Below, in pieces: positions 7,339 to 25,462 of a stretch of 64,000 nucleotides of DNA. The notes beneath the pieces are model-generated. The model was not told the origin of the DNA, did not search any database, and saw only the letters and a program-made list of their open reading frames with translations. The translations under genes were made by a program, and so were the position numbers. This DNA is from an uncultured Paraprevotella sp. (GTDB taxonomy: Bacteria; Bacteroidota; Bacteroidia; Bacteroidales; Bacteroidaceae), in assembly GCA_944321525.1 (NCBI GenBank), contig CALULQ010000004.1, positions 62,001 through 126,000 of the forward strand, written 5' to 3'. Each line of letters begins with the position of its first letter. Positions within the stretch are counted from its first letter, which is position 1.

Positions 7339-10300
7339 ATGAAACGATTCATCTTGTGTGGGCTTTGCGTCGTGTCGCTTTGCGGCATGGCCGCGCAAGT
7401 CCGGGCAGCCAGCTATGACAACTTGTGGAAACAAGTGAAGGAATATGAGCGGAAAGACTTGCCGAAATCGGCTTACGCCGTGGTGGAGCAAATCGCGGCC
7501 AAGGCCGGCAAGGAGGGGAAGAAAGGGCAGCGGATGGCGGCCTTGCTCTATGGTTGCAAGCTTCGCCAGCAGGTGGTGCCGGACAGCTTTTATACCGACA
7601 TGCTGAGGCTGGAGCGGCTCAAGCGGCAGGCCACGGACGAGGTGGAGCGGGCCGTGCTGGCTTCGGTGCTGGCCGGACTTTATGAGGACAACGCCGGACG
7701 GAACCGGAACAACAGCCGGCGGACGGACGCGCATCCGGACAGCATCCGCGAGTGGTCGAGGGCGCAGTTCTGGAAGGCGGCTTCGGAGAACTACCGCTTG
7801 TCGATGGCGCATCCCGCGTTGCTGGCCGAAGCCCGTGCGGCCGACTACCTGCCCTTCGTGGAGCGGGGAGAGAATGCCTCGTATTTCAACGGCGACCTGC
7901 TGAACGTCATCGGGCGGCGGGCGGCCTACGGATGGAATCCCGAGGACCTCGATGCCGGCCGCCTAGCCGTGTATGGCCGGATGCTGGAGGCGTATCGGTC
8001 GAAGGGCAGCCGCGAGGCGGAACTGCTGGTCCTGCTGGATTCGGTGGCGGTGGTGAGCGACGAGGAGCGGAGGTATGCTTGGGATGCATACGATGAGGAA
8101 CATGCGGAAGAATGTGAGCGATGGGTGCTGTCTTCCTCGTCGTCTTACAAGGCCTACCGGCAAATGCTCTCCCGCTTTGGCGACTTGCCGCTGGCGGCCG
8201 AGATTTATATCGCGATGGTAGACCGCCTGCCCGTGACGGACTCTTTGAAAGTGCAATGGGTGGAGGAAGGTTACGGGAAATACAAGGACTATCCGAGGGC
8301 CAAGGCATTGCTGAACGATAAGGAAAGGCTGGAGGCTCCTTCGCTGACCTTGGGATTTCCGGCGATGGCGAATCCGGATGTTCCTTTTGAAGGAGTCGTG
8401 GAGCACTGCAACGTGTCCGGAATGGAACTCCGGTGGTATCTTTTGCCGGGCGGGGTCCCGAAGGAAGAATCGTTGCGTGCGGCCTATCATAAGGACGAGG
8501 AGGCATACGCGAAGAAACATGGCCGGCTCATGAAGACACAGCGGTTGGAGTGGGCGGCTCGTCCGGCTTGGGCGGAGGTGCGGGACACGTTCATGCTCTC
8601 TTGCCCCGGCGTGGGATATTATGTGGTGGTGGGGAAGGCCGACGGCGTGAAGGACGCGTCGGGCGACTGGGCCGTGGCGCTGCCCTCCACGCGTCTGGAA
8701 CTGGTGGGCGGCGTCTTGCCGGACAGCACCAGTTTCTACACCGTGTTGGACGGACGGACGGGCCGCCCTGTGCCGGGCGCGACCGTGGAATGGCTCTCGG
8801 GAGAGAAGGCTGTGCATTCCGCCGTGACGGACGCGGAAGGCAAGGTCCGCTGGACGGAGGCCGCCCGTTGGACGGAGAAGAACAACCGGCGTTCCTTTTC
8901 GGTGAAAGTCCATAAGGGGGAAGACCGTTATCATAAGGGAATGACGGCTTGGCTCTCTTCTGTTCCTTTTAATGAACATGACGGGGCGAGGGAGACGGAA
9001 CGCCTCTATACCGACCGGTCCATCTACCGTCCCGGACAGACGGTGTACGTGGGTGGCCTGTGCACGGACGAGCGGCGCGGAGAGGAACGTGCGGTGGCCG
9101 GGCGCAAGGTGGCGCTGGAACTCCGCGACCCGAACGGGAAGACCGTGGCGGAGCAGACGGTGGAGAGTGACGGGATGGGAACGGTTGTCGCCACCTTCAC
9201 CCTGCCCGCCACGGGGTTGTCCGGAGAATACGTGGTGAAGACGAAAAACAGTGCGGTGACCTTTACGGTGGAGGAATACAAACGGCCTACGTTTGAAGTC
9301 ACCTTGGATGAACTCGCCGACCGTTACCGGCCCGGCGACACGCTGCGGCTGACGGGGGTGGCCATGAACTACAACGGCGTGCCTTTGCGTGCGGCCCGCG
9401 TGTCGGCGACATCCTACGTGTCGCGATGGTTCTATCGGCGGGGTGTGTGGAAGGAGCCTGTCCAGCTGGATACGGTCTATACCGATGCCGAGGGACGTTT
9501 CGTCTTGTCCGTTCCGGTCCGTGAGATGGAAAAAGAGAGGTTGAAGGGTGTCGGCGGCTTCCGGCAGGTGGTGGACGTGGCAGTCTTGAGCGCCTCGGGA
9601 GAGACACAGAAGGCGCAGACATCTTTCCCCTTGTCGAAAGAAGGTCTGCAATTGTCCCTGGAGGGCTTGTCTTCCACATTGGTGAAAGAGGCGCTTCCGA
9701 GTCTGGAAGTCTTGGTGCGAACCGCGGCCGGAACGCAATGGAAAGAGACGGTGACGGTGACATGCGACATCTTCCACGCGCCGGAAGGAGGACCGAAGAA
9801 GAAGGTCGTTTCCGGCATCCAGTTGCCGGCGGGCCGGTCGGTGCGGGTGGCGGAATTGTCCGCCTTGCCGTCCGGATGCTACGAATTGGCTTTGCGGGCC
9901 GTGGCGGCGGAAGATACGACTGAATATGCGCAAAGCTTCAGGATTTTTAGTTTGTCGGATGCCCGTCCGGCGGACGGTGTGAAGGATTGGTTCTATTGTG
10001 TGAACGACACGGTGGCGCCGGGGCGGCCGGGACATCTGAAGGTCGGCAGTGCGGCGGACAGTGTGTCGCTCTACTATATGCTTTTCTGCCGCGACCGCGT
10101 TCTGGAAGAGAAGGTGGTCCAGTTCTCCGATTCCATCTTGGACTTCACTTATCCGGAGATACCGGAAGGGGCGGACGGCATGCAGGCCGTGTTCTATTTC
10201 GTGAAGGACGGAGAGTATTACAATTACAGTCAGCATCTTGTGCGCTGTCGGCCCGACCGCAGTCTCCGCCTGTCATGGCTGACGTTCCGCGACCGTCTGC

Positions 10301-13074
10301 AGCCGGGGACGGAAGAGACGTGGCGGCTCCGAGTGACGCTGCCAGACGGGCGGCCGGCCCCGGCGCAGCTCATGTCGGTGCTGTATGACGCCTCGTTGGA
10401 CGGCATACGGCCGCACGCTTGGCAGTTGCAGCTGTATTTCACCTACGCTTTGCCGCATGTGTCGCTCAATAAGATGTGGTGGTTCGGTGGGAATTCCATG
10501 ACGTGGACGGCTCCCTTCCGGATGGCAACGGTGAAAAGCCTGAGCTTCGACCGTTTCTCCGACCTGATGCTGTTCTGGGGCAGCACTCGCGAAGAGGTCT
10601 TCGCCTTGCAGAGCGTTCCGGAAGTGAAGATGGTGGCCCGGAATGCCGGGATGGGGCGTGTGGGCAGCACCGTGATGCCCAAGACGGTGACGCTTAACAT
10701 CGCGGAGACCGATGCCGTGGCGCTAGAGGGGAGCATTGCCGGGCTGGATCTGGATGCCAAGGAAGAGGAACAAGCGGGCGTGACGACAGCGGGGCACATC
10801 GCCGTGCGCGGCGACCTGCGCGAGACGGCTTTCTTCTATCCTCGCTTGATGGCGGATTCCGCCGGTGTCGTGACCTTGCGGTTCACGCTGCCCGAAGGAC
10901 TGACCACGTGGAAGTTCATGGCCTTGGCACACACGGCGGACATGTATGCCGGGACGTTCACCGACGAGGTGGTGGCACAGAAAGAGGTGATGGCACAGCT
11001 GGCCCTGCCGCGTTTCGTGCGGCTGGGCGACCGGGCCACGCTTTCGGCCTCGCTCTTCAACTTGACGGAGCAACCGCTGCAGGGCACGGTGACGATGGAG
11101 GTGTTCGACCCCGCCACGGAGAAAATCTTATGGAGCGGTTCGACGAAGGTGAGTCTGGACGCGGAGACCGATTCCGTGGTAAGTTTCGTGTATGAGCCGG
11201 AGCCCGGGGTGTCGCTGCCCGCCTGCCGGGTGCTGTTCGAGGCCGGGGAATATACGGACGGCGAACAGCGCTACCTGCCCATTCTGGAGGACAAGGAATG
11301 GCTGACGCAAACGCGTCCCTTCGTCGTGTCGCACAGGGGCGATACGCTCATCCGGCTGGACGGACTGTTCCAGAACAACCACCGGGAGGCGGACCGTCGG
11401 CGGCTGACGGTGGAGTATACGGCCAATCCCTTGTGGTATGCCGTGCAGGCCTTGCCGTCTGTCCAGCAACCGCGGACGGACGATGTGCTGTCGCTCGCGG
11501 CGGCTTATTATGCCTCTACGTTGTCGGACAAGCTGGCCGGACAGTATCCGCAGATGAAGACGGCTATAGACTCTTGGATGCAGGAAGGCGGCGAGGCGGC
11601 GACGGGTATGCAGGCCGAACTGGCTGGTATCGTGCTGGAAGAAACTCCGTGGGTGGCCGATGCCGAAGCGGGGACGCAACGGATGATGGCGCTGCAACAG
11701 CTGTTCGACGCCAACCGTCAGGCCGACCTCCGGCGGCAGTTCGCCGTTTCGCTGGGCAAGCTGCAGCACGAGGACGGCGCCTTTGGTTGGTTCGGCGGAA
11801 TGGAAGGCAATGCTTATCTGACGCGGCGGGCGGCACGCCTGCTGTTGCGGAGCGGGGCCGGACGGACGGCTGACGAGACATTGGCTTCTGCCGTGGACGT
11901 GAAGAAGATGATGCGTTACCTGATGGACGAGGCGCATGACGATATTTTGAAGGACAGGGAGCACAAGGCGGAGCATAAGACTTACCTTTATTCCGCTTCC
12001 GACTGGCTGGAGACGCTGTACTTGCTGAACTTGTGCGACGCGTCGTGGTGGGATGCCGCGGACCGCAAGGATGCGGACTACATGTTGGCCCGCCTGACGG
12101 AAGGGATGCACGGGCTGGCGTTGGCGGACAAGGCCGAGGCGGCCGTGGTGCTGACGGACATGGGCAAGCCGGACGAGGCGGCGCAACTGTTGGCTTCCAT
12201 CCGCGAACATCTGGTAGACGGTGCGGAGGGACTGCACATCGAATATCCGTCGAACGGCTTTGTGGGTTCGGACCGCAAGATGGCCGTGCACACGGCACTG
12301 ATGGAGGCATTGGCCTTGGCGGGCGGTGCGGACCGGGCGGAGGCGGACGGCCTTTGCCGCTGGCTGCTGTCGCAGAAGCGCCTGCAGGACTGGGGCACTT
12401 CCACGGCCACGATGGATGCCGTCTATGCCTTGCTGCAGGGACAAGGGCAGGACTTGACGCTGCATGCCGGTGACCAAGTGCGGCTGGAGTCGCCCAAAGG
12501 CGAGGAATGGGCTGTGTTGCGGACGGCGACCGACGGCGTGGCCGGTCTGGGCACGGTGACGGCCACAGTGGAAGGTCGCGAACTGGACGGCGGGGCCGGC
12601 GTGCTGAAAGTCACGAAGCAGGAGGAAACGCCGTCGGCTTGGGGAGCGGCCTACGCGCAGTTCCGCTTGCCGTTGGCGGAGGTAGAGGGAGCGGCCGCGG
12701 GATTGCGGGTCCGCGTGGAGACGGACAACGAATCGCCAAAGGTGGGCGACCGGCTGACGCTCCGTTATGTCATCACGTCCGACCGCGACTATGAATACGT
12801 GCGCCTGAAAGCCGGGCGTGCGGCTTGTCTGGAGCCGGTGGAGGCCTTGTCGGGCTATGAACGCTGCAACGGCTTGGGATATTACAAGGAAGTGAAGGAC
12901 GCCTCGACGAACTATTTCTTCGAGCGCCTGCCCAAGGGCACTTATGTGCTGGAGATGGAATGTTACGTGGAGCGCGCAGGACGCTATACGGTGGGCGCGG
13001 CGAAGCTGAACGGCGTATATGCGCCTGAGTTCAGTGCCTACGCTTCCGGCATGACATTGGAGGTACGTCCATGA
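7339..13074 (+). CDS. Alpha-2-macroglobulin family protein lacking the thioester motif
   Basis: 1911 residues with a Sec signal peptide (residues 1 to about 26). An MG2-type domain is marked by ERLYTDRSIYRPGQTVYVG near residue 553. The A2M signature segment (FFYPRLMADSAGVVTLRFT, then LPEGLTTWKFMA) lies around 1160-1200, a helical toroid region about 1370-1700, and a receptor-binding-like C-terminal domain near 1800. At the place of the usual CxEQ thioester it reads LPSVQQPRTDDVLSL, with no Cys-Gly-Glu-Gln, so covalent trapping of proteases is not expected. Bacterial members are periplasmic or outer-membrane protease-trap or envelope-defence proteins. First gene of an operon: it overlaps the next gene by 4 bases (ATGA). 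Confidence 0.92.
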   Translation: MKRFILCGLCVVSLCGMAAQVRAASYDNLWKQVKEYERKDLPKSAYAVVEQIAAKAGKEGKKGQRMAALLYGCKLRQQVVPDSFYTDMLRLERLKRQATDEVERAVLASVLAGLYEDNAGRNRNNSRRTDAHPDSIREWSRAQFWKAASENYRLSMAHPALLAEARAADYLPFVERGENASYFNGDLLNVIGRRAAYGWNPEDLDAGRLAVYGRMLEAYRSKGSREAELLVLLDSVAVVSDEERRYAWDAYDEEHAEECERWVLSSSSSYKAYRQMLSRFGDLPLAAEIYIAMVDRLPVTDSLKVQWVEEGYGKYKDYPRAKALLNDKERLEAPSLTLGFPAMANPDVPFEGVVEHCNVSGMELRWYLLPGGVPKEESLRAAYHKDEEAYAKKHGRLMKTQRLEWAARPAWAEVRDTFMLSCPGVGYYVVVGKADGVKDASGDWAVALPSTRLELVGGVLPDSTSFYTVLDGRTGRPVPGATVEWLSGEKAVHSAVTDAEGKVRWTEAARWTEKNNRRSFSVKVHKGEDRYHKGMTAWLSSVPFNEHDGARETERLYTDRSIYRPGQTVYVGGLCTDERRGEERAVAGRKVALELRDPNGKTVAEQTVESDGMGTVVATFTLPATGLSGEYVVKTKNSAVTFTVEEYKRPTFEVTLDELADRYRPGDTLRLTGVAMNYNGVPLRAARVSATSYVSRWFYRRGVWKEPVQLDTVYTDAEGRFVLSVPVREMEKERLKGVGGFRQVVDVAVLSASGETQKAQTSFPLSKEGLQLSLEGLSSTLVKEALPSLEVLVRTAAGTQWKETVTVTCDIFHAPEGGPKKKVVSGIQLPAGRSVRVAELSALPSGCYELALRAVAAEDTTEYAQSFRIFSLSDARPADGVKDWFYCVNDTVAPGRPGHLKVGSAADSVSLYYMLFCRDRVLEEKVVQFSDSILDFTYPEIPEGADGMQAVFYFVKDGEYYNYSQHLVRCRPDRSLRLSWLTFRDRLQPGTEETWRLRVTLPDGRPAPAQLMSVLYDASLDGIRPHAWQLQLYFTYALPHVSLNKMWWFGGNSMTWTAPFRMATVKSLSFDRFSDLMLFWGSTREEVFALQSVPEVKMVARNAGMGRVGSTVMPKTVTLNIAETDAVALEGSIAGLDLDAKEEEQAGVTTAGHIAVRGDLRETAFFYPRLMADSAGVVTLRFTLPEGLTTWKFMALAHTADMYAGTFTDEVVAQKEVMAQLALPRFVRLGDRATLSASLFNLTEQPLQGTVTMEVFDPATEKILWSGSTKVSLDAETDSVVSFVYEPEPGVSLPACRVLFEAGEYTDGEQRYLPILEDKEWLTQTRPFVVSHRGDTLIRLDGLFQNNHREADRRRLTVEYTANPLWYAVQALPSVQQPRTDDVLSLAAAYYASTLSDKLAGQYPQMKTAIDSWMQEGGEAATGMQAELAGIVLEETPWVADAEAGTQRMMALQQLFDANRQADLRRQFAVSLGKLQHEDGAFGWFGGMEGNAYLTRRAARLLLRSGAGRTADETLASAVDVKKMMRYLMDEAHDDILKDREHKAEHKTYLYSASDWLETLYLLNLCDASWWDAADRKDADYMLARLTEGMHGLALADKAEAAVVLTDMGKPDEAAQLLASIREHLVDGAEGLHIEYPSNGFVGSDRKMAVHTALMEALALAGGADRAEADGLCRWLLSQKRLQDWGTSTATMDAVYALLQGQGQDLTLHAGDQVRLESPKGEEWAVLRTATDGVAGLGTVTATVEGRELDGGAGVLKVTKQEETPSAWGAAYAQFRLPLAEVEGAAAGLRVRVETDNESPKVGDRLTLRYVITSDRDYEYVRLKAGRAACLEPVEALSGYERCNGLGYYKEVKDASTNYFFERLPKGTYVLEMECYVERAGRYTVGAAKLNGVYAPEFSAYASGMTLEVRP

Positions 13075-14117
13075 ACCGGTGTCTGGTGCGGTGGGGCATG
13101 GCGGCGGCGTGCGCCGGTTGGGCCGCAGGCTTGATGGCGCAGACTGCCGTGGCGCTTGCCCCCCGCGACTTGGCCCGATGGCAGGTGGCGCCGGGCAATT
13201 ACAGTGGGATTACGCCGCTGGGGCGCGGGCGCTATGCCGTGGTGAGCGACAAGGACGTGCGGGACGGTTTCTTCGTGTTTCGTGTCGTGCAGGATTCGCT
13301 GACCGGGCAAGTGACGGAGGTGGTGGACGAAGGCTTCCGGGGCGTGGCTTCGGATTTGGCCGGCGGACGCGATGCCGAGGGGGTGGCTTTCACTCCGGAG
13401 GATTCCTTGGTGTGGATTAGCGGGGAGGCCGACCAGCGCATCGTGGCCTGCCGCATGGACGGGACGAAAGCGGGACGGGAACTGGACGTTCCTGCTTTGC
13501 TGGGCGTGGCGGCCATTCATCCCAACTATGGCTTCGAGGCGTTGGGCTATGACCACGTGAAGGGCCTGTTTTGGACGATGACGGAGAACGTCCTGAAGGC
13601 CGACGGCTTGCCGGTGGGGCCGGGCGTTCAAGGGCAGGCGGCTTTGCGCTTGCAGAGTTTCGGGCGCGACGGCCAGCCCCGGGCAACTTACTCATACAAG
13701 CTGGACCCTCCGCAGGTGGAAGCCCGGGGACGGCAGTATGCCTTCGGAGCTGTGGCTTTGTGTCCGGTGGGCGACGGGCGGTTGTGGGTGATGGAGCGCG
13801 AAGCCAACGTGCCGAAGCGGCGGTTGAAGTCGCGCGTATATATAAAGGTATATGAGATACGCCCCGTTGAAGGGCAGGCCGGACCGGCGCTGGAGAAGCG
13901 TCGCGTGGCGGCCTTTTCCACCCGGATGCGCCTGTTCCGCCCCAAGTGGGCCAACTATGAGGGGCTGTGCGAAGGCCGACGGTTGGCCGACGGGCGTCGC
14001 ACGTGGCTGCTGGTGAGCGACTCGCAAGGCGGCTACGGCAACAGGTTTTGCCATTTGCGTGATTGGATAAGAGTGTTGGTTCAAGAGAAGGAGACGGACA
14101 AACATGAAAAGGAATAA
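13071..14117 (+). CDS. Esterase-like phytase domain protein
   Basis: 348 residues with a signal peptide (cleavage about residue 24, after LMAQ). The body resembles the esterase-like activity of phytase family (PF13449) beta propeller: DAEGVAFTPEDSLVWISGEADQ-like text near residues 100-125, YGFEALGYD near 154, and WANYEGLCEGRRL followed by a VSDSQGG turn near 290-325. It is predicted periplasmic or exported. The family is named for weak phosphatase/esterase activity; the true substrate is unknown. Its start overlaps the macroglobulin stop and its end overlaps the next gene by 14 bases, so the three are translationally coupled. Confidence 0.8.
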   Translation: MNRCLVRWGMAAACAGWAAGLMAQTAVALAPRDLARWQVAPGNYSGITPLGRGRYAVVSDKDVRDGFFVFRVVQDSLTGQVTEVVDEGFRGVASDLAGGRDAEGVAFTPEDSLVWISGEADQRIVACRMDGTKAGRELDVPALLGVAAIHPNYGFEALGYDHVKGLFWTMTENVLKADGLPVGPGVQGQAALRLQSFGRDGQPRATYSYKLDPPQVEARGRQYAFGAVALCPVGDGRLWVMEREANVPKRRLKSRVYIKVYEIRPVEGQAGPALEKRRVAAFSTRMRLFRPKWANYEGLCEGRRLADGRRTWLLVSDSQGGYGNRFCHLRDWIRVLVQEKETDKHEKE

Positions 14118-15139: not shown

Positions 15140-17371
15140 TCAACGCGCCGTCTCGTGCAGTGAGGCTTTGCCTTCGGAGAAGTCGATCACGAAATCGCCG
15201 TCGGGTTCGCTCTCGGCGAATGCTTTCATCATGGCGCAAATGTCGCGCAATGCCGACTGGATGGTGGCAGGTGTCTTCTTGCCGCTGCCGGCTGTGGCTG
15301 CACATGCGTCCCACAAGGCCCGGTATTGCGCCATCCGCGACCGGGGAATGTGGCGTCGGGAGAGGCTTCCGGCGAAGTGCAGGCGGTAGAGGTCGGTGAC
15401 GAGGTCCATGCCCGTCCATGCCACGGTGTCGCCTTCCGCCACATGGAGGCCGGCCAGCCGCATGAGTGCGGCCCCGTCCATGCGGGCGATGCTGTCGCGC
15501 ACCACGGCGGGCATTTCCTTTTCCAGGTAACGCGAGGTCACGAGGGAGCGGAAGTGCCGGTCGCAGAACGCGGCATAGTCGGGCGAGTAGAGGATGTCGG
15601 TGTCCCAGACACCGGGCGCCAGCGCCCTTTCTTTCATGTAGCGCGGCCATAAGTCGCGGAAACCGCCCACGGTGTCGAGTACGACGGTTTCCACGCGGAA
15701 GCGGCCGGGGCTTTCCAATGTGAGGATTTTGTAAGCAGGCACGTCGGCCGCCGTCGATGGAACCTGTATGTTGTACAAGGAACGCCCTTGCCCGTCGGAG
15801 ACTACGGCCGTGTGGTTCTGATGCAGGTGTCCCGCGAAGTGCAGCCCGATGCCGGCTTCCAGCAAGGCAGTGCCCACTTCCCGGGGCGGAACGCGGTGCA
15901 GGTTCATGGCCTTGGGCTTCATGAAGTTGGAAATCTGTTCGCCTGCTCCGTTGTGGAAGTCCGTGGCCGGATAGTGGCAAAACGCCACGAGCGTCTTGCC
16001 CAGTCTTCGTGCGTCGGCCGCCACGCGTCCTGTCCATTCGATGAGGAACCGTTTGTGTTTCCATACGTTGGCATAGCCAGCCGACGGGCTTCGATAGACG
16101 TCCTTTGAGTCGTCCGTGCGTTCGGGCAGAAACACGTTTCCGTCTATGGCCAGCAGCCATAGGCCCTCTACGGGTTCCACGACGTAGCTTGCGTCCACGC
16201 CTTGCAGGCTGTCACCCAGCATGTAGCGGCGCATCTGCGGCGTTGCGGCTTTTTCCGCCTCGTCGAGGGTGTAGTCTTCGTAGTCATACTTGCTGAAAGG
16301 TGTGGACCAATATAAGTATTCTTCGCGCGGCGAATAGCCGAAAGCCGCCCATGCCCTCATCAGTTCTTCGTATCCCAGGCAATGCAGCGTGGTGTCTACG
16401 GGCAGCTTCCCGCTGCCCAGTTCCTTGCTGCTTGCCATGGCCGTGCGCCGCCCGTCGGCCGAGAGCAGGTCGTCGGCCACGTAGTCTTTGCCGCGGGGCT
16501 GCGCGGGGTCGTGGTTGCCTGTGGTGACGAAGAACATCATCCCGTGCCGCTTCATGTAGGCGTCGAGCATCCGCCGGACAGCTTCCACGTTTGCGGCCTG
16601 CCCGTTGTCGGTCAGGTCGCCCGGCAGGACGACCAGCCGTATGCCGCGTGCGGCCACGTCGTCGAGGGCAGAGCGGAAGGCATGGATGTTTTCGTTGAAG
16701 AGCCGGGTGGAGCCGAGCTGTGCCGCCATCGTGCGGGCCAGTTCGGGGCGCGACACGACATCCTGCACGTGCGGGTCGGCGATGAAGGCCACGCGCAGCT
16801 TGCCGTCGGCGCGGCTCATGGCTTCGGCCACGTTGGTCACCGTCCAGTCGATGCCGAGCGGGTTGCCCTTCATGCGCCAGACGAGCGGCAGGCGCAGATC
16901 GTCGACAATCCACATTTCGCAGCCTTCGGTCCGGTCTGCCACGTGGAGCGACTTCAGTCCCGGTGCGGCCGGCAGGCTGTCCACCAGGTCGTAGCGCGTG
17001 TTGCCGTAGACGAAATGCAGGCTGTCGTGCAGTTGCCGCAGCGCCTTTCGGGAGAGCATGAAGGCCGTTTCATCGGCCGGCACGTCGATGGCCTTGCCGT
17101 GTCCGGGCTGCAGGAAGCAGAGTCGGCTTCCGTCCTCCACCGACCTTTTCCCCATCCGGTATGTGCCGCCGTAAACCTTCCCGTGGCGCGGCATGCTCCA
17201 GCGGATGGCGACCGAATCGTCCACCGGTTCGAATTTCATGGCAAATCGCCGTGTCTGCCCGTAGAGGGCAAATTCGAAACGGAAGGTGTCGGGCGAGAAA
17301 GCCCCGGCGCGGGTGCCTTCAGCGCAGCGGGGGAGGAAGAGCATTAATAATAGCAGTATGCAAGTTCTCAT
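15140..17371 (-). CDS. Secreted calcineurin-like metallophosphoesterase
   Basis: 743 residues from the ATG at 17371. The upstream open frame runs through a non-coding repeat and was discarded; MRTCILLLLMLFLPRC is a clear signal peptide. Residues about 20-185 are a beta-rich N-terminal domain. The phosphoesterase core has all five signature blocks: D199-x-H201 (FIADPH), GDLTDNG with D252, GNHD at 285-288, an FCHYPATD block, and GHLH at 514-517. These ligate two metal ions. A helical C-terminal domain follows. Probable role: periplasmic phosphomonoester or phosphodiester hydrolysis, perhaps acting on products of the neighbouring GDPD-GH92 enzyme. A 315-base gap with repeat copy 2 separates it from that gene, so co-transcription is uncertain. 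Confidence 0.88.
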   Translation of the reverse strand: MRTCILLLLMLFLPRCAEGTRAGAFSPDTFRFEFALYGQTRRFAMKFEPVDDSVAIRWSMPRHGKVYGGTYRMGKRSVEDGSRLCFLQPGHGKAIDVPADETAFMLSRKALRQLHDSLHFVYGNTRYDLVDSLPAAPGLKSLHVADRTEGCEMWIVDDLRLPLVWRMKGNPLGIDWTVTNVAEAMSRADGKLRVAFIADPHVQDVVSRPELARTMAAQLGSTRLFNENIHAFRSALDDVAARGIRLVVLPGDLTDNGQAANVEAVRRMLDAYMKRHGMMFFVTTGNHDPAQPRGKDYVADDLLSADGRRTAMASSKELGSGKLPVDTTLHCLGYEELMRAWAAFGYSPREEYLYWSTPFSKYDYEDYTLDEAEKAATPQMRRYMLGDSLQGVDASYVVEPVEGLWLLAIDGNVFLPERTDDSKDVYRSPSAGYANVWKHKRFLIEWTGRVAADARRLGKTLVAFCHYPATDFHNGAGEQISNFMKPKAMNLHRVPPREVGTALLEAGIGLHFAGHLHQNHTAVVSDGQGRSLYNIQVPSTAADVPAYKILTLESPGRFRVETVVLDTVGGFRDLWPRYMKERALAPGVWDTDILYSPDYAAFCDRHFRSLVTSRYLEKEMPAVVRDSIARMDGAALMRLAGLHVAEGDTVAWTGMDLVTDLYRLHFAGSLSRRHIPRSRMAQYRALWDACAATAGSGKKTPATIQSALRDICAMMKAFAESEPDGDFVIDFSEGKASLHETAR

Positions 17372-17478
17372 ATTGTTCTGATTTTGTCGTTCGATAAGGA
17401 TGGTTGGTGAATCGTCCCTGTCCGATGAGGCGTCGCCCCCGTTTCCGCCCGTCCCGCCGCGGAAGGCGGGATGTTGCC

Positions 17479-17568
17479 TTGCGGAGTGCGGAACTGTACT
17501 TTCCGCAAGGTACTTGAGTACTCTCCGCAGAGTACTCGAGTACTTGCCGCAGGGTACTGCGCCCGCTT
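17479..17568. repeat. Palindromic 3 x 22-bp intergenic element, copy 2
   Basis: Units start at 17503, 17525 and 17547, each beginning CCGCA; the second contains AGTACTCGAGTACT. The left end keeps ttgcggag, but the right inverted end is degenerate (gcgcccgc). Flanking similarity to copy 1 extends from about 17458 (cgcggaaggcggg) to about 17610 (cgtcgggcaagtccgggcgc). It fills most of the 315-base gap between the GDPD-GH92 gene and the metallophosphoesterase gene, both on the minus strand. Confidence 0.85.
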
Positions 17569-17686
17569 CTGCCCGCTGCGGCGAGGCGTCGGGCAAGTCC
17601 GGGCGCTTGCTTGCCGGGCAGGCACAGGTGCTTGGCGGCCTCATGTGGCAGGACTGTCTGTCATGTTCTTTTGTTTTTAATCTTTG

Positions 17687-20600
17687 TCAGAACCCCGCCT
17701 CTTGGTTGCCGGGGAACATCTCGCGTCCCCAGTCGCCGGGTTCGCTTCCCATTTCCAACACCAGTTCGCCGCCCGCCACGATGTCGGCGTGGCGCAGGGT
17801 GGAGTAGGGATAGGGGCGGCCGTTGAGCGTGGCCGAGCGCACGTAGCGGTTGCGTGGGCTGAGTTCCCGGGCTTCGATGGTGAACGTCGCTCCCGGCCGC
17901 GGGTGCAGCACCGTGCGCTCCATCATGGGCGCGTTGATGAGGTAGTAGTCCTGCCCCGCGTTGGGATAGAGGCCCATCATCTGGAAGGCCAGCCACGACG
18001 ACATGGCGCCCGAGTCGTCGTTGCCCGGCAACCCGTCGGGCCGGTCGGAGTAGCTTTCGTCCACAATGGCGCGGATGCGGTCGCTGCTGCGCCACGGCTT
18101 GCCTAGCCAGTGGTAGAGGCAGGGCGTGAGGAACGACGGTTCGTTGTTCACATTGAAATACCCGCGGTCGAAGAAGCGGTCGAGCCGCCGTTCGAAGGCT
18201 TCTGCCCCGCCCGAGGCCGCAATCAGCCCCGGCACGTCGTGAGGGATGCTCAGGGAGTATTCCCACGATGTGCCTTCGTAGAAAAACATGTCCCACCATG
18301 CCGTGTACCACGGGCCCTCGATGGTCAGCGGCGTGTAGCGAAAGGTGGGGTGCTGCAGGCGTGAGCGCCCGAAGGGCAGGTCGTCGAGCCATCGCCCCTC
18401 GGCGTCGCGCGGCATGATGAAACCGCGCGCCCCGTCGTGCTCGTAGTCCGCGCGCCACAGGTTCTTCCAGTTGCCCGACTGGCGGAGGTATTTCGCCGCG
18501 AGGCTGTCGTGTCCCAGTCCGCGTGCCACGGTGGCGATGGCGTAGTCGCAGTAGGAATATTCCACCGTGCGGCTGCCGGCCCTTGCCACGCCGTGGGGAA
18601 TGTAGCCCAGTTGCAGGTAGGGCGCGAGCCCGCCCCGGCCCTCGGCCTCCTCGTTGCCGCCGGGGGGCACGGTGGCGTCCTTGAGCATGGCCTGCAGCGC
18701 CAGTTCGTAGTCGATGCCCCGCAGCCCCTTCACGAAGGCGTCGGCCACCACGATTTCGGCGTTCGAGCCGCCCTGCGTCCGTCCGTTGCAGTTGCCGCTG
18801 CGCGCGTCGGGCATGTATCCGTCGCGCTTGTAGATGTTCACCAGCGCGCGCACGATGTCCGTCTGCCTGTCGGGGTCGATGAGCGTGATGAGCGGCGACG
18901 ACGTGCGGTAGGTGTCCCAGATGGCGTAGAAGTCGTCGTAGTAAGGCTCGCCGTCGGTCCAGAGCGGATTGTCGCCCGTTCGGTCCACGGGCATGAGCAT
19001 GGTGTGGTAGAGCGCGGTGTAGAACATCCTTTTGTATTCGTCGGGCAGGTCGTCGGGGATTTCAATGCGGTGGAAGAGGCGCTCCCACTCGTGCACCAGC
19101 CCGCTCCTCACCTCGTCGAACGACCATCGCGGAATGTCCTCCCGGCAGTTCTGCCGCGCCTTGAGTTCGCTGACGAACGAGATGCCCACCTTCAGCCTCA
19201 CGGTGTCGTTCCCGCCGCGGACGTCGAATTCCACGATGGCGCCCGTCTTCTCGCCCGAGTCGAATTGTTCCCGCGCGTCGCCCACGTGGCTGCCTTTCCA
19301 TGTGCGCACGCGGCGGAACGGCCGGTCGGCTACGGCGTGGAAATACACCGTGTAGGCCCGTCCGTTGTTCCAGCCCCCGCGGATGCGGCTGTATCCCTCG
19401 ATTTCGTGGTCGGACACCACCCTTACCTGTGAGCCTACGAACTGTTGTGCCTCGCGTGCGTCCGGCACGGGATTTTCGCCCAGGAAGAAGCCGGCGTCCA
19501 CCAGCAGCCCTTGCCGCGCTCCTTGGGGGTAGGTGAAGCGGTAGAACGACGCCCGGCGTGCGGCCGTCAGCTCCGCCTTCACCCCCGATGCGGCCAGCTC
19601 CGTGGCATAGTAGCCCAGGGCGATCTCCTCCGTCTTGCGGCGGTCGGGACGGCTCGTGCTTCCCAGCGTGTCGTCTGCGGCCGGGGCGAAGGGCATCACG
19701 AGGATGTTGCCGTATTTCGGTCCGCCGCCCGTGCCGCTCACGTGCACTTGGGCGAAGCCGTCCACCTGCTCGGGCATCGGCAGCCAGCCGCTGTTGGGAT
19801 GCACGGTGCAGTCGGGCGAAGGCTTCGCCATGCCGAAGGGGCACGAAGGGCCTACGAACACGCGCCCCAGACCTTCGCTCCCGATGCGCGGGTCCACGTA
19901 GCCGGCCAGCGGCCGGCGGCGGATGCGTTCTTCTTCGTCAATGTCGGCCATCACCTTGGCGAACAGTTCCGGACGGTCGAGGTTCACCAGGTCGGGCTGC
20001 CGCGCGATGGCTTCCTTGTAGGCCGCTTCTTCTTCGCCTTGCACGGCGGCCATGATGCGGATGCCGTTCCGGCGGCAGAAGTCGCGCACTTCCCCGGTGA
20101 TGCGTCCGGGCGCGATTTCCACGTAAGACGGGCGGCATACGCCCATCCAGCGCCTGATGCCCTCCACGTCCGAGGCGTTGACCTTCACTTTCATTTCCGG
20201 CGCCAAGCGCGTGAACTCCTTCAGCATTGCCGTGTCGGCGAACCAGAAGAAACTCTTGTCGCCGCCGAAGCCCTTGGCGTGGACGAGGGCGATGAGCGGG
20301 GCCACGGGCGCGCCCGGCTTCACGTCGAAGAAGACGCGGGCGCGGCCCCGCAGCGAGTCGAGCATTTCGGACACGCGGGGGACGCGCACGCCCCGGAATT
20401 CCGGGGAAAACCACGAGCCGGCATCGAGCCGGTCCACGTCGGCCGACAGCATGTCGGCCAGGAACCCCCTTCCGTTGGTCGTGCGGTCCAGCGTCGGGTC
20501 GTGCAGGTTGTAGAGCACGCCGTCCTTGCTCGCCCTGACGTCCACTTCAACCCAGTCGGCGCCATGTTCCAGGGCCGCGAAGGCCGACGCCACGGTGTTT

Positions 20601-20743
20601 TCCGGTGCCAGATGGTTGGCGCCGCGGTGCACCACCACCTCTATTCTTCTGCCAAAGCCACGTTCATTGCCGCGGGCGGCGGCAATGAACGTGGCGGGTA
20701 GAAGGATGAATAAAAACAGAGCAAATTGTTTCTTCATGTCCAT
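17687..20743 (-). CDS. Fusion of glycerophosphodiester phosphodiesterase (GDPD) and GH92 alpha-mannosidase
   Basis: 1018 residues with a signal peptide (1 to about 24). Residues about 33-268 are a complete GDPD domain: H39-R40-G, PENT at 47-50, E66-x-D68, H81-D82-P, and FFDVKP near 150; these are the metal and catalytic positions of the family. Residues about 275-1018 are a full-length GH92 exo-mannosidase, opening YVDPRIGSEGLG, with the general-acid motif TVEYSYCDYAIA (E728) and the base motif GNDDSGAMSSW (D909/D910). GH92 enzymes are Ca2+-dependent inverting alpha-mannosidases. Having both in one chain suggests stepwise attack on a mannoside bearing a glycerophospho- or similar phosphodiester group. 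The start is 6 bases after the SusD stop (an alternative Met is two codons in), so it is operonic with susCD. Periplasmic or surface location inferred from the signal peptide. Confidence 0.93.
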   Translation of the reverse strand: MDMKKQFALFLFILLPATFIAAARGNERGFGRRIEVVVHRGANHLAPENTVASAFAALEHGADWVEVDVRASKDGVLYNLHDPTLDRTTNGRGFLADMLSADVDRLDAGSWFSPEFRGVRVPRVSEMLDSLRGRARVFFDVKPGAPVAPLIALVHAKGFGGDKSFFWFADTAMLKEFTRLAPEMKVKVNASDVEGIRRWMGVCRPSYVEIAPGRITGEVRDFCRRNGIRIMAAVQGEEEAAYKEAIARQPDLVNLDRPELFAKVMADIDEEERIRRRPLAGYVDPRIGSEGLGRVFVGPSCPFGMAKPSPDCTVHPNSGWLPMPEQVDGFAQVHVSGTGGGPKYGNILVMPFAPAADDTLGSTSRPDRRKTEEIALGYYATELAASGVKAELTAARRASFYRFTYPQGARQGLLVDAGFFLGENPVPDAREAQQFVGSQVRVVSDHEIEGYSRIRGGWNNGRAYTVYFHAVADRPFRRVRTWKGSHVGDAREQFDSGEKTGAIVEFDVRGGNDTVRLKVGISFVSELKARQNCREDIPRWSFDEVRSGLVHEWERLFHRIEIPDDLPDEYKRMFYTALYHTMLMPVDRTGDNPLWTDGEPYYDDFYAIWDTYRTSSPLITLIDPDRQTDIVRALVNIYKRDGYMPDARSGNCNGRTQGGSNAEIVVADAFVKGLRGIDYELALQAMLKDATVPPGGNEEAEGRGGLAPYLQLGYIPHGVARAGSRTVEYSYCDYAIATVARGLGHDSLAAKYLRQSGNWKNLWRADYEHDGARGFIMPRDAEGRWLDDLPFGRSRLQHPTFRYTPLTIEGPWYTAWWDMFFYEGTSWEYSLSIPHDVPGLIAASGGAEAFERRLDRFFDRGYFNVNNEPSFLTPCLYHWLGKPWRSSDRIRAIVDESYSDRPDGLPGNDDSGAMSSWLAFQMMGLYPNAGQDYYLINAPMMERTVLHPRPGATFTIEARELSPRNRYVRSATLNGRPYPYSTLRHADIVAGGELVLEMGSEPGDWGREMFPGNQEAGF

Positions 20744-20749
20744 GGTCTT

Positions 20750-22399
20750 TTAATAACCTTCATTCTGTTTCCAGTGCGTGTTGGTGTTCAGCACCGACGT
20801 GGGGATGGGGAACACGCGGCGGAACTTCTCCTCCATGCCCTCGGGATAGAGGTAGCGGAATCCCCAGTTGTCCTCGAAGCGGCCGAAGCGTATCAGGTCG
20901 TTCCTGCGCCATCCCTCGTCGGCAAACTCCCTCGCGCGCTCGTCGAGCAGTTCGTCCAGCGTGGGGTCTGCCGCCAGCAGCGGGGCGTGCACGTAGGTGC
21001 GTATCTGGTTCATCAGGCTCATGGGCGTGTCGCCCTTCGTGGCCGTCCCCCCGCGGAGTATGGCTTCAGCCTTCATCAGCACGATGTCGGCATAGCGGAA
21101 TATGGGCATGTCGTTGCTTTGGTTGTGCCCTTGCGAGGCCGTGGCCTCCACGTCGGGGTAGAACTTGATGGAGCGTGCTCCCGCGGCCCGCCCGCTTTGG
21201 TCGTTGCCCACGTCGAGCGTGCCCTCGCCTCCCGTTCGGAGCGGTATTTCGCGGGTGTAGTCCATTTGCCATTCTATCGGGTCGTCCTTGTCAGCCGCCA
21301 GATAGTCTTGGTCGAGCCCGTTCTTGGTAGTCTCGATGATGAAGGGGCGGTCGGTGCGTTCGTAGTTTTCCCAGTAATATTGCGGTCCCACGAGATATTG
21401 CGCGTTGCGGTCGTCGCCGGGCAGGCAGAACTTGTCGAGGAACTCCGGCAGGCAGCGCAGGTTGCCGGCAGGGCCGGAAGCCACCACGCCGAACTGGTCC
21501 TTGCCGCTGCGGCTTTTCCAGAAGCGGGCGTGCACCATGCCCTGCTGCGTCTCGCGGTCGAAGGGCATCACGAAGATGAAGTCGCGGATGTGCGGCCCGT
21601 TGTCCGGGCGGAACTTCACCATGAAGCTGTCCGTCAGGGCGAAATGCCCGCTTTCGATGAGCGCGTCGCACATGGCGATGCAGTCGTCGAGCTTGGGATT
21701 CGGGGTCGCCGGCGTGTAGTCGTCCACCCGTTCGGCCGTATAGACGTTCCAGTTCAGGTAAAGCTTGGCCAGCAAGGCCTCGGCCATGTATCGGGTGGCC
21801 TTGCCGTAGGTGGCCTCCGACACTTCTTCCGGCAGCAGGTCTTTGACGTCGAGCAGTTCCTTCTCGATGAAACGGCACACGTCGGCGCGTTTGCTGCGTT
21901 CGGGGTGCGACGTGGCGTCGTCATCCATGATGGGCACGTCGCCGAAGTTGTCCATCAGCAGGAAGTGGTAGTAGGCCCTCATGGCGCGCACGGGTGCCAG
22001 GTCCTCGGGGCTTTTCCCTTCGAGCATCTTGCGTATCTGGTTGCAGGTGGTGATGCCCGTCATGGCGCCGTCCCACATCGTGCCCAGCATGCCGTTGTCG
22101 GCGTTCCAGTCGTGCACGGTCATCTGCCGGTACACGCCGCCGTCGTAGTAGTCGGCTCCCATGGCGACTCCCGCCATTTCGTCGGTCGACATGCACTGCG
22201 CCATCCAGTGCTGGCGCCCCATGGCCGTGCGGTAGGGGTTATAGATGGCGGCGCTTACGGCCTCTATGGCTTCCGGCGTGTCGGGAATCTCGGTGTATTG
22301 TGATTTGATGTCCACGTCCAAGTCGGTGCAGGCCGTAGCCATCAGTGCGGCCGTGCAGCCCAGCACGATTGTCTTCAAACAGTTTCTTGATTTCTTCAT
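20750..22399 (-). CDS. SusD/RagB-family outer-membrane glycan-binding lipoprotein
   Basis: 549 residues. Lipoprotein signal with Cys24 (LMATACTDLD). The sequence follows the RagB/SusD plan: an N-terminal SusD-like helical part (TPEAIEAVSAAIYNPYR), TPR-like helices (MRAYYHFLLMDNFGDVPI), and a typical C-terminal block (LDELLDERAREFADEGWRR followed by DLIRFGRF). It would sit as a lid on the SusC channel and capture the glycan. It lies 21 bases after susC and 6 bases before the GDPD-GH92 gene in one operon. Confidence 0.95.
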   Translation of the reverse strand: MKKSRNCLKTIVLGCTAALMATACTDLDVDIKSQYTEIPDTPEAIEAVSAAIYNPYRTAMGRQHWMAQCMSTDEMAGVAMGADYYDGGVYRQMTVHDWNADNGMLGTMWDGAMTGITTCNQIRKMLEGKSPEDLAPVRAMRAYYHFLLMDNFGDVPIMDDDATSHPERSKRADVCRFIEKELLDVKDLLPEEVSEATYGKATRYMAEALLAKLYLNWNVYTAERVDDYTPATPNPKLDDCIAMCDALIESGHFALTDSFMVKFRPDNGPHIRDFIFVMPFDRETQQGMVHARFWKSRSGKDQFGVVASGPAGNLRCLPEFLDKFCLPGDDRNAQYLVGPQYYWENYERTDRPFIIETTKNGLDQDYLAADKDDPIEWQMDYTREIPLRTGGEGTLDVGNDQSGRAAGARSIKFYPDVEATASQGHNQSNDMPIFRYADIVLMKAEAILRGGTATKGDTPMSLMNQIRTYVHAPLLAADPTLDELLDERAREFADEGWRRNDLIRFGRFEDNWGFRYLYPEGMEEKFRRVFPIPTSVLNTNTHWKQNEGY

Positions 22400-22420
22400 G
22401 ATTGTATATTCCGTTTAGAA

Positions 22421-25400
22421 TTAGAAGTTGATGTTTACGCCCAGCATGTAGGTCCTGGCGCGCGGATAGGTGCGGCGGTTGTCGATGCCCGGCGTGAGCC
22501 CGCCCAAGTTCACTTCCGGGTCGATGCCCGAGTAACCGGTCAGGGTGAACACGTTGTTGCAGGTGAAGGCCAGCTTCAGGCTGTTGATCCAGTCGCCCAC
22601 CCGGCCGAAGTCGTAGCCCAGCGACAGGGTGGAGAGGCGCAGGTAGCTGCCGTTCTCCAGATAGCGGTCAGAGAGATAGTGCGAGTTGTAGTCCGTGGCG
22701 CGGTTCTCCTCCGCGTAGCTCGTCAGCCAGTTCCTCACTCCTGCGTCGGCCACGTTGGAGAGGCGCGCCTTCGTGCCGTTCATGATTTTGTTGCCGAAGG
22801 TGCCTTGGAAGAATGCCGTGAGTGAAAAGCGTTTGTACGTCAGCGTGTTGTTCCAACCCATGGTCAGTTTCGGTTGTGCGCTTCCGGTGCATGCGCGGTC
22901 GGTGCTCAGCGGCGTGGTGGTGGTTTCGCCGGTGCGTTCTCCCGTCACGGGGTCGTGCACGTAGAAGGTCGACACTCCGTTCTCGTCATATCCGGCCCAC
23001 TCCCAAGTGTAGAACTGGCCGATGGGATGCCCTTCCATGATGCGCTGCTGCTTGATGTTGCTCTGCCCGGCTCCGCCCAGGTCGGCTTCCCCGGGTTCTA
23101 TGTAGTCCACCGAGAACTCGTCGTTCGACAGTTTTTCCACCACGTTTTTGTTGTGCGACAGGTTGAGGGCCGTGGTCCACCGGAAGTTTTTCGTCTGCAC
23201 GGGCACGGCGTTGATGGTTACTTCCACGCCCTTGTTGCTGATTTCGCCCACGTTGGCTGTCAGCTCGCCGTAGATGTATTCCGTGGTCGACACGGGATAG
23301 GCGTAGATGAGGTCTTTCGTGCGCTTGGTGTAGTATTCCACGGTTCCGCCCAAGCGTCCGCCGAAGAAGGCGAAGTCGAGTCCCACGTTGAACATGCCTG
23401 TGCGTTCCCACTTCAGGTCAGGGTTGGCGTTGCTCAGTGCGCCGATGGTGTGTACTTCCTTGCCTTCCGAGTCAGTGAACCATCCCGTCACGCCGTAGCG
23501 CATGCGTGCCGTGAAGGCGTCGAATCCGAGCGAATTGCCGCTCACGCCGTAGCCCGCGCGGATTTTCAAGTCGTCGAACACGCCGAGGTCCTTGATGAAC
23601 TTCTCCTCCGACAGGCGCCATGCCGCAGATGCCGAGGGGAAGGTGGCCCAGCGGTTGTTCTCCCCGAAGGCCGATGAGCCGTCGCGGCGCACGGTGGCTT
23701 GGAGCAAGTATTTGCCAAGGAAGGAATAGTTGGCGCGGGCGTAGAATGAGATCATGCGCAGGGTGGAAAGGTTGTAGTTGCCCAGTCCGGCTTCCGTGCG
23801 GTCGATGGAGTTGGCCATGCCCATGTTGTGATACGTCAGGTCGTCGCTGAAGAAGTCGTAGGCGCGCAACTGGAAGCCGTCGTCGGTGTTGTCTTCTTGC
23901 CAAGAGTAACCCGCCATGAGGCCGAGCTTGTGCGCCTCCTTGAAGGTATGGTCGTAGTTGAGGTACATTTCCATCACCTTGCTGTCGTTCTGCACGCTCG
24001 AGCGCTGGGCCTGTCCGTCCATCCCGGCAGCGATGAGCGAGTTGGCGGTGTTGTAGACGTTGTTGTTGATGTGTTCGTTCTCATACGAGAGCATGAGGTT
24101 GTATTTCAGTCCCCATCCTATGTCGAGCCCGGCTTTCGCGGTGGCCTGTATGCGCTGGCTTTTGGTGAAGTCGGTGTTTTCCTCGATGAGCGCCACGGGG
24201 TTGTAGTATTGTGTGCGCGAGGCATGTTCGAACCAGTTGCCGTTTTCGTCTTTCACGGGCGAGAAGGGCAGGTAGTAGTTCATGGCATCGTAGACCGAGG
24301 CCCCATCCGTATAGTCGGGCACTTGGTTTTGTTCGGTCAGGCTGGCGTTAAGGTTGAATGAAAGGTCCAAGCGGTCGTGCAAGGTCTTGGTTCCCACGTA
24401 GGCACGTCCGTTGAGGCGTTTCAGGTTGTCGCCTTTGATGATGCCTTGGTTATTGAAATAGTTGATGCTGGCACTATAGTTCGTCTTGCCAGTGCCGCCG
24501 CTGATCGACACGTTGTGGTTGTGCGACACCCCCGTGCGTTGCACCTCTTTCTGCCAGTCGGTATGCGCCCCGAGGTCGTCGGTCGGGTCGATGGACAGGC
24601 CGTTGCTCAAGACGAAGTCGCGGTATTCGTCGGCGCCCATCATGTCGAGGTTTTTCGACACTTGGTCGAAGGCCACGTAGGCGCTGTAGTTCACCGAAGC
24701 CCGCCCTTCCTTGCCTTTCTTCGTGGTGACGAGGATGACACCGTTGGCGGCTTTCGAGCCGTAGATGGCCGTGGCCGAAGCGTCGCGCAACACGTCGATG
24801 CTCTCGATGTCTTCCGGTGAAATGAGCGAAATGTCCATTCCCGGCACGCCGTCGATGACGTAATACGGTTCCATGGCAGCTCCCTCGCGCAGGGTCGAGG
24901 CGCCGCGCAGGGTGACCGACGACGAGGCATTGGGGTCGCTGCTGGTGGTGATTTGCAGACCCGGCACTTTGCCTTGCAGCAACTGCGCCGGCGACTGGTA
25001 TACACCTACGTTGAAATCTTCACTTTTCACGGTGGTGATGGAGCTGGTCACGTCCTTGCGGCGCATGTATCCATAACCTACCACGACCACCTCGTTGAGC
25101 AGCTTGTTGTCTTCTTTCATTACAAAGGTTGCCCCGTTGGAGAGCTTGGCCGTGAGAGTCTGGAAGCCAATGTAGGAGATTTCGACGGCAGCTCCGGCGT
25201 CCACGCCTTTTAGTTCGAAGTTGCCGTCGAAGTCCGTGACGGTCTTCGCGGAGGACCCCTTTACCACGATGGTGGCTCCTATCACGGTTTCGCCTTTTTC
25301 ATCGATGACTTTCCCTTTGATGGACCTGACGTCCGGCGCAACAGCTTGTACCACTGCGTCGTTTCTGCCTTGTTCGGCCTGCCGGTTGTCGGCTGCAGAG

Positions 25401-25462
25401 GCCGGCAAACAGGCTGAACCAGACAATAACAAGGCCCAAAGTAGATTACCTTTAAATTCCAT
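22421..25462 (-). CDS. SusC/RagA-family TonB-dependent transporter
   Basis: 1013 residues from the ATG at 25462. The frame is open further upstream, but that part spans the promoter and has no signal; MEFKGNLLWALLLSGSACL is a signal peptide. Residues about 46-115 are the carboxypeptidase-regulatory-like domain (IKGKVIDEKGETVIGATIVV). A TonB-interacting segment follows (LNEVVVVGYG, about 122-131), then the plug (about 135-240, with the PEDIESIDVLRDASATAIYG type motif) and the 22-strand barrel ending in the typical aromatic terminus (LGVNINF). It imports oligosaccharides using TonB energy. No anti-sigma/sigma pair or SusR-type regulator is adjacent. Confidence 0.95.
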   Translation of the reverse strand: MEFKGNLLWALLLSGSACLPASAADNRQAEQGRNDAVVQAVAPDVRSIKGKVIDEKGETVIGATIVVKGSSAKTVTDFDGNFELKGVDAGAAVEISYIGFQTLTAKLSNGATFVMKEDNKLLNEVVVVGYGYMRRKDVTSSITTVKSEDFNVGVYQSPAQLLQGKVPGLQITTSSDPNASSSVTLRGASTLREGAAMEPYYVIDGVPGMDISLISPEDIESIDVLRDASATAIYGSKAANGVILVTTKKGKEGRASVNYSAYVAFDQVSKNLDMMGADEYRDFVLSNGLSIDPTDDLGAHTDWQKEVQRTGVSHNHNVSISGGTGKTNYSASINYFNNQGIIKGDNLKRLNGRAYVGTKTLHDRLDLSFNLNASLTEQNQVPDYTDGASVYDAMNYYLPFSPVKDENGNWFEHASRTQYYNPVALIEENTDFTKSQRIQATAKAGLDIGWGLKYNLMLSYENEHINNNVYNTANSLIAAGMDGQAQRSSVQNDSKVMEMYLNYDHTFKEAHKLGLMAGYSWQEDNTDDGFQLRAYDFFSDDLTYHNMGMANSIDRTEAGLGNYNLSTLRMISFYARANYSFLGKYLLQATVRRDGSSAFGENNRWATFPSASAAWRLSEEKFIKDLGVFDDLKIRAGYGVSGNSLGFDAFTARMRYGVTGWFTDSEGKEVHTIGALSNANPDLKWERTGMFNVGLDFAFFGGRLGGTVEYYTKRTKDLIYAYPVSTTEYIYGELTANVGEISNKGVEVTINAVPVQTKNFRWTTALNLSHNKNVVEKLSNDEFSVDYIEPGEADLGGAGQSNIKQQRIMEGHPIGQFYTWEWAGYDENGVSTFYVHDPVTGERTGETTTTPLSTDRACTGSAQPKLTMGWNNTLTYKRFSLTAFFQGTFGNKIMNGTKARLSNVADAGVRNWLTSYAEENRATDYNSHYLSDRYLENGSYLRLSTLSLGYDFGRVGDWINSLKLAFTCNNVFTLTGYSGIDPEVNLGGLTPGIDNRRTYPRARTYMLGVNINF

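Follow-up and report, generated by a model that had tools for sequence, protein, structure and literature searches.

Bacteroides loci for high-mannose and plant N-glycans, among them those of BT3990, BT2199, BT3130 and the GH92 of B. massiliensis, combine a SusC/SusD pair with GH92 enzymes and with peptide:N-glycanase (PNGase) or endoglycosidase companions. A locus in a 64,000-nucleotide stretch of DNA from an uncultured Paraprevotella sp. (the window, to which all positions refer unless a locus of our comparison set, labelled L036, L104 and so on, is named) has SusC/SusD and the GH92 fold (Z 41-44) in common with them. However, its GH92 forms one chain with a glycerophosphodiester phosphodiesterase (GDPD) domain, is only 27-31% identical to the Bacteroides enzymes and has a shortened loop before the NEP motif (GYFNVNNEPSF), and the loci of its clade carry inositol-phosphate enzymes instead of PNGases or endoglycosidases. 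The GDPD domain shares the full-length fold of the Agrobacterium GDPD 1zcc (PF03009; 40% identity over 239 residues) and keeps the H/E/D/H residues, but unlike 1zcc it is fused to GH92, predicted to be secreted and encoded beside SusC/SusD. The neighbouring gene encodes a metallophosphoesterase joined to a domain that we call X; the nearest solved folds of its catalytic domain include Lmo2642 (2xmo) and SMPDL3/acid sphingomyelinase, from which it differs in its low identity (12-17%) and its fusion to X. Multiple inositol polyphosphate phosphatase (MINPP; BtMinpp, 4fdt) and the phosphatidylinositol-specific phospholipase C (PI-PLC) PI-PLC-C1 lie beside clade GH92 genes in sister loci, MINPP also being fused to GH92 or X; neither belongs to the window locus, and their places are taken there by GDPD and the metallophosphoesterase. 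Lastly, a phospholipase C of Botrytis cinerea likewise exemplifies microbial release of the inositol-phosphate glycan from glycosyl inositol phosphoryl ceramide (GIPC), but it is fungal, of the sphingomyelinase type and described without a glycan-import locus (PMC11496612).

We read the window locus as a small locus of the polysaccharide-utilization type whose substrate is the headgroup of an inositol-phosphate glycolipid. The likeliest such lipid is a GIPC (the mannose type, Man-GlcA-Ins-P-ceramide, or the fungal Man-Ins-P-ceramide); we favour this reading while holding it at slightly less than even confidence. More generally, gene content suggests that the clade loci encode a hitherto undescribed set of bacterial enzymes for feeding on inositol-phosphate lipids decorated with sugars, of which the chief sphingolipids of plant membranes are the most likely candidates.

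A GDPD-GH92 fusion in a SusC/SusD locus

A sequence-only reading of the window had reported a 1018-residue chain holding both a complete GDPD and a complete GH92, next to SusC, SusD and a secreted calcineurin-type phosphoesterase, and each of these components was confirmed (Table 1). The fusion matches PF03009 (5e-24), PF17678 (1.5e-57) and PF07971 (2.5e-146). The Pfam match to GDPD is limited to residues 39-130; a phmmer alignment to 1zcc covers residues 35-268 (E 5e-50), so the domain is complete, with a TIM barrel and all of H39, E66, D68 and H81. Both GH92 Pfam domains are full length (PF17678 1-236/236, PF07971 1-464/464), the two-domain GH92 fold is found, and the catalytic residues E728, D909 and D910 are present. 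An AlphaFold model of the chain (mean predicted local distance difference test score, pLDDT, 86) aligned with GH92 structures over 640-676 residues at 23-32% identity (BT2199: Z 44.1 across 669 residues). The same reading had named a sequencing artefact joining two genes as the finding that would undo it; such an artefact or frameshift is ruled out, because homologous fusions of 999-1009 residues are encoded in four other genomes and G+C content at third codon positions is high across the entire gene.

Intergenic gaps are 21 bp between SusC and SusD, 6 bp between SusD and the fusion and 315 bp between the fusion and the phosphoesterase, and with susC/susD adjoining genes for degradative enzymes the arrangement is that of a polysaccharide utilization locus. 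The predicted phosphodiesterase, phosphatase and alpha-mannosidase genes, which form the core of the proposed GIPC set, all lie within 15140-20743. No regulator (hybrid two-component system (HTCS), extracytoplasmic function (ECF)/anti-sigma or SARP) was recognised among the annotated flanking genes, although some sister loci do have an HTCS regulator.

Table 1. Features of the locus, in window positions; all are on the reverse strand.
Feature	Position	Strand	Evidence
SusC/RagA TonB-dependent outer-membrane transporter, 1013 aa	22421..25462	-	TIGR04056, E 1.6e-241
SusD-family surface glycan-binding lipoprotein, 549 aa	20750..22399	-	PF07980, PF14322
GDPD-GH92 fusion protein, 1018 aa; N-terminal signal peptide, no lipobox seen	17687..20743	-	
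GDPD domain, residues ~33-273	19925..20647	-	PF03009; 1zcc Z 33.1
GH92 alpha-mannosidase domain (predicted), residues ~277-1014	17702..19915	-	PF17678, PF07971; GH92 structures Z 35-44
Domain X plus calcineurin-type metallophosphoesterase, predicted to be secreted, 743 aa	15140..17371	-	PF00149, motifs
Domain X, residues ~28-180, beta-rich, without Pfam family	16832..17290	-	homology to X of sister loci
Metallophosphoesterase catalytic domain, residues ~190-735	15167..16804	-	nearest folds include 2xmo, Z 32.7

For the phosphoesterase we took the ATG at 17371 as the start, which gives the signal peptide MRTCILLLLMLFL, in preference to a longer open reading frame (ORF) from 17644, because the tail that the latter adds is missing in homologues. 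The protein is of the calcineurin type (PF00149) and carries the motifs DPH199, GD251, GNHD285 and GHLH514. In its model (mean pLDDT 84.7), the nearest folds of the catalytic domain include, besides Lmo2642, 2nxf (Z 23.7) and GpdQ (2zo9, Z 21.5); SMPDL3 proteins reach Z 18.5-18.8 (SMPDL3A 18.8), tied with purple acid phosphatases, and acid sphingomyelinase Z 17.5. This likeness to acid-sphingomyelinase-like enzymes does not establish function. Domain X spans about 150 residues and had no match in Pfam and no convincing sequence match in the Protein Data Bank. Foldseek returned LolB, RseB, LprG and a PNGase N-terminal domain at weak E values (0.007-0.3, ~170-200 columns), but as the aligned range of the query is not shown, a lipid-binding fold for X is only a lead.

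The GH92 clade is marked by the conserved sequences NIYKRDGYMPDARSGN-NGRTQGGSNAE and FNVNNEPSFLTP. Alpha-1,2-specific GH92 enzymes use Trp, His and Glu at the +1 site, with a C-terminal His/Glu pair (PMC9522356). A loop of ~25 residues in BT3990 and BT2199 that presumably carries this His/Glu pair is missing from the window GH92 and its clade, so the clade is probably not made up of standard alpha-1,2-mannosidases.

A PF13449 'phytase-like esterase' gene (13071-14117, +) lies on the other strand, two genes away from the locus, preceded by a gene for a 1911-residue bacterial alpha-2-macroglobulin (7339-13074) and followed by a DUF4837 gene.

Companion genes and module shuffling

Genes within 10 kb of GH92 were compared between 80 named clade loci and 40 other GH92 loci, the controls being drawn from the window's family and the case set being taxonomically wider. 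MINPP is encoded in 20 of the 80 clade loci and none of the controls, and its identity follows from matches to 7r5y (E 1.9e-67) and a 4fdt chain (3e-56). GH89 (NAGLU) and NagX/HGSNAT, a predicted N-acetyltransferase acting on terminal glucosamine, occur in 27 clade loci each and domain X in 59, again against 0/40 controls, while the most frequent companion hydrolase, GH28, is found in 39/80 against 2/40. P values for companion genes go down to 1e-16; these overstate certainty, because loci of one lineage are not separate observations and because the case set is the wider one, and the zero control counts are the solid part of the comparison.

Companions also appear to substitute for one another by position. 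PI-PLC-C1 (PF16670, E 6e-127) occurs beside GH92 in five environmental loci, between SusD and GH92 in four (L140, L144, L145 and L153) and near GH92 in the fifth (L154). The SusD-GH92 slot is where L147-L149 have a GDPD gene and where the fused GDPD of the window lies. The alkaline phosphatase PafA is encoded in L175, L181 and L157, and a sodium-solute symporter and GH43 in other sister loci. CehA/McbA-family metallohydrolases, which are phosphoesterase-like, recur near clade GH92 genes (L144 12835-14067; L163 4351-5868). Many hosts of clade loci are plant- or soil-associated. The nearest GH92s on proteobacterial plasmids show 38-40% identity; two of them, on Asticcacaulis plasmids (L034 14881-24758, L233 9878-19862), have a sugar ABC importer before them and iolG and iolCDEB, a complete inositol catabolism set, after them.

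The sequence-only reading knew of no other GDPD-GH92 fusion, but the fusion is not unique. Homologous chains are encoded by Bacteroides mediterraneensis (L104), Phocaeicola plebeius DSM 17135 (L105), an uncultured Bacteroides metagenome-assembled genome (MAG; L110) and a Muribaculaceae MAG (L120), the last being the closest locus, with the gene order of the window, both of its fusions ([GDPD-GH92] and [X-phosphoesterase]), and 75% and 79% identity in SusC and SusD. A distant fusion of 1244 residues (L036 5449-9183, -; GDPD 26%, GH92 33% identity), which also has C-terminal CHB_HEX_C and PA14 domains and adjoins two more GH92 genes, probably arose independently; L124 ends at a contig boundary and may be fused as well. 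No full-length GDPD-GH92 fusion was found in the plasmid search. GH92 orthologues with 51-73% identity were found in 29 other genomes among 301 searched in the window's family, nearly all unfused. In the GH92 tree the fusions are scattered over at least two lineages, and the supported branches require a minimum of 6 label changes; the available sequences thus indicate that the fusion has repeatedly been gained or lost.

The GDPD partner varies likewise, being GH92, X, GH28 or none where GDPD is a separate gene. X-GDPD is found in 3 loci, GH92-X in 17, X-MINPP in 4, X-phosphoesterase in 1 plus the window and MINPP-GH92 in L091 and L094, while X as a separate gene mostly comes after GH92 (34 loci). 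In a different Bacteroidales genome, the gene that immediately follows SusC/SusD encodes a 764-residue GH28-GDPD fusion (L234 7730-10024, +), which joins a GDPD of the same clade as that of the window to a different glycosidase. In another family of the order (L038 7608-15999, -), a 1857-residue, open-ended protein with two GH92 units adjoins a 710-residue protein with a GDPD domain at its end. In the fusion locus of B. mediterraneensis, SusC is broken into two ORFs of 700 and 295 residues (L079 1963-4977, +), which reflects either a frameshift or a fault of assembly. Two Alteromonas genomes (L164, L168) contain the GH92 clade as well, which suggests that it was transferred from Bacteroidota to other bacteria; L112 and L160 bear Clostridia/Clostridium MAG labels but appear to be Bacteroidota contigs that were misbinned.

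Candidate substrates

Since PI-PLC replaces GDPD in sister loci, the GDPD domain may itself cleave an inositol-phosphate lipid. In the pathway that we propose, it would cut the phosphodiester linking inositol to the lipid by way of the inositol hydroxyl beside the phosphate, as PI-PLC does, and the GH92 domain fused to it would then remove alpha-mannose. The X-metallophosphoesterase would take off the remaining phosphate or cut a second diester, SusC/SusD would import the freed glycan, and X may serve to hold either the lipid or the inositol-phosphate end. In sister loci PI-PLC would replace GDPD, and MINPP or PafA the phosphoesterase, with NagX and GH89 added to deal with heads of the GlcN(Ac) type and GH28 to deal with uronic acid. 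We favour GIPC because phosphate, inositol, mannose, free glucosamine and uronic acid would then all be accounted for: judged by predicted activities, GIPC gives every recurring enzyme a role, glycosylphosphatidylinositol (GPI) gives one to all but GH28, and phosphatidylinositol (PI) mannosides explain phosphate, inositol and mannose only. In the headgroups of plant GIPC, Man, GlcN or GlcNAc is attached to GlcA-Ins-P-Cer, with Ara and Gal further out (PMC12201980, PMC8099651), and the set of NagX, GH89, GH28 and inositol phosphatase fits them better than GPI or PI mannosides. The iol genes beside the Asticcacaulis GH92s and the acid-sphingomyelinase-like folds near that of the phosphoesterase also count in favour of this reading. 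We consider possible, though doubtful, a wider version in which a widespread, undescribed bacterial system digests GIPC with a GH92 clade of new specificity (for mannose on GlcA-inositol or inositol), GH28 enzymes that work as alpha-glucuronidases on inositol, and X as a new domain that offers each enzyme the amphipathic substrate and has been passed among them by gene fusion.

Several observations weigh against GIPC. To our knowledge GH28 enzymes act on galacturonides, and a GH28 alpha-glucuronidase would be new. Several sister loci hold two or three GH92 genes, a number that the simplest GIPC, with its one mannose, would not call for. The metallophosphoesterase is not significantly enriched (7/80 against 1/40), and although it never occurs together with MINPP (0/80 loci), this exclusion is not significant either (P 0.12), and we dropped it as proof of one shared step. 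The 80 loci are mutually related, so that their counts are not independent. Finally, NAGLU and HGSNAT/NagX were not found in the host genome, where two weak GH28 matches are unlinked to the locus; with these enzymes the host therefore could not complete the breakdown of a headgroup that contains GlcN or GlcA. Because only the core of diesterase, mannosidase, phosphoesterase and importer is present, the window locus is best read as a specialist for mannose-type headgroups. Its GH92 is the sole one in the 3.5-Mb host genome, which also encodes a second GDPD (a 307-residue frame) and has a marginal His_Phos_2 match.

The several GH92 genes per locus would suit the GPI-anchor glycan of dietary or host cells, Man-Man-Man(a1,4)GlcN-Ins-P-lipid, from which GDPD or PI-PLC would free the glycan, GH92s take mannose, NagX acetylate GlcN for removal by GH89, and the metallophosphoesterase remove ethanolamine phosphate as eukaryotic PGAP5/Cdc1/Ted1 do. 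Its free alpha-GlcN needs just the NagX and GH89 that are enriched, PI-PLC is present in sister loci, and the enzymes known to act on GPI include a GDPD (GDE2) and a metallophosphoesterase (PGAP5). We nevertheless consider GPI, the main rival of GIPC, unlikely: its glycan contains no uronic acid, whereas GH28 is a companion in nearly half of the loci and is fused to GDPD in L234; many hosts live with plants or in soil; and the window genome has one GH92 and neither NagX nor GH89. Should GPI be the substrate, these would be, as far as we know, the first known loci for its glycan. Deacylated PI mannosides, from which GDPD would free glycerol-3-phosphate and GH92 mannose, agree with the usual action of GDPD on glycerophosphodiesters and with the inositol phosphate indicated by MINPP and PI-PLC, but they leave NagX, GH89 and GH28 of the sister loci unexplained and are rather improbable.

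The sequence-only reading had proposed a pathway for mannosides carrying phosphodiesters and had named PI mannosides, GPI-type glycans and phosphomannan. The pathway itself gains from GDPD, MINPP and X beside or fused to the GH92 clade and from PI-PLC nearby, but GIPC, the best fit, was not among its candidates, and of these only the first two keep the probabilities just given. Yeast phosphomannan (Man-1-P-6-Man) would recall the mannan loci of Bacteroides, and yeast-mannan loci do contain GH92 and phosphatases. It is very improbable here, because inositol, GlcN and uronic acid are all absent from it, leaving inositol phosphatase, PI-PLC, NagX, GH89 and GH28 unexplained, and because the window GH92 keeps its general acid E728, which CcMan5, a GH92 cleaving Man-1-P, reportedly lacks; moreover, neither GH76 nor GH125 was recognised in those loci that were annotated. 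It is also possible in principle that the two domains share no substrate, with GDPD scavenging glycerophosphodiesters for phosphate and GH92 acting on an unrelated mannoside. GDPD is indeed present in just 10 of the 80 clade loci (0/40 controls), a minority that counts against our GIPC reading too. However, the fusion is found in at least two GH92 lineages, the same GDPD clade is fused to X and to GH28, and PI-PLC occupies the GDPD slot; these recurrent associations argue for a common pathway, and we give separate substrates little probability.

Implications

We found no report of a bacterial locus for GIPC breakdown in the open-access literature, where the combinations GDPD+GH92, GIPC+PUL (polysaccharide utilization locus) and GPI+PUL gave no matching report, and a term search of a 2025 review of gut inositol derivatives (PMC12482443) found no mention of GIPC. 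As GIPCs are described as major plant sphingolipids (PMC8099651, PMC11907402), they are eaten daily by people and herbivores. If the GIPC reading is true, they would be a new class of nutrient for gut and soil Bacteroidota. It would also assign functions to clades of GH92, GH28 and phosphoesterases, define domain X and provide enzymes for the structural analysis of GIPCs.

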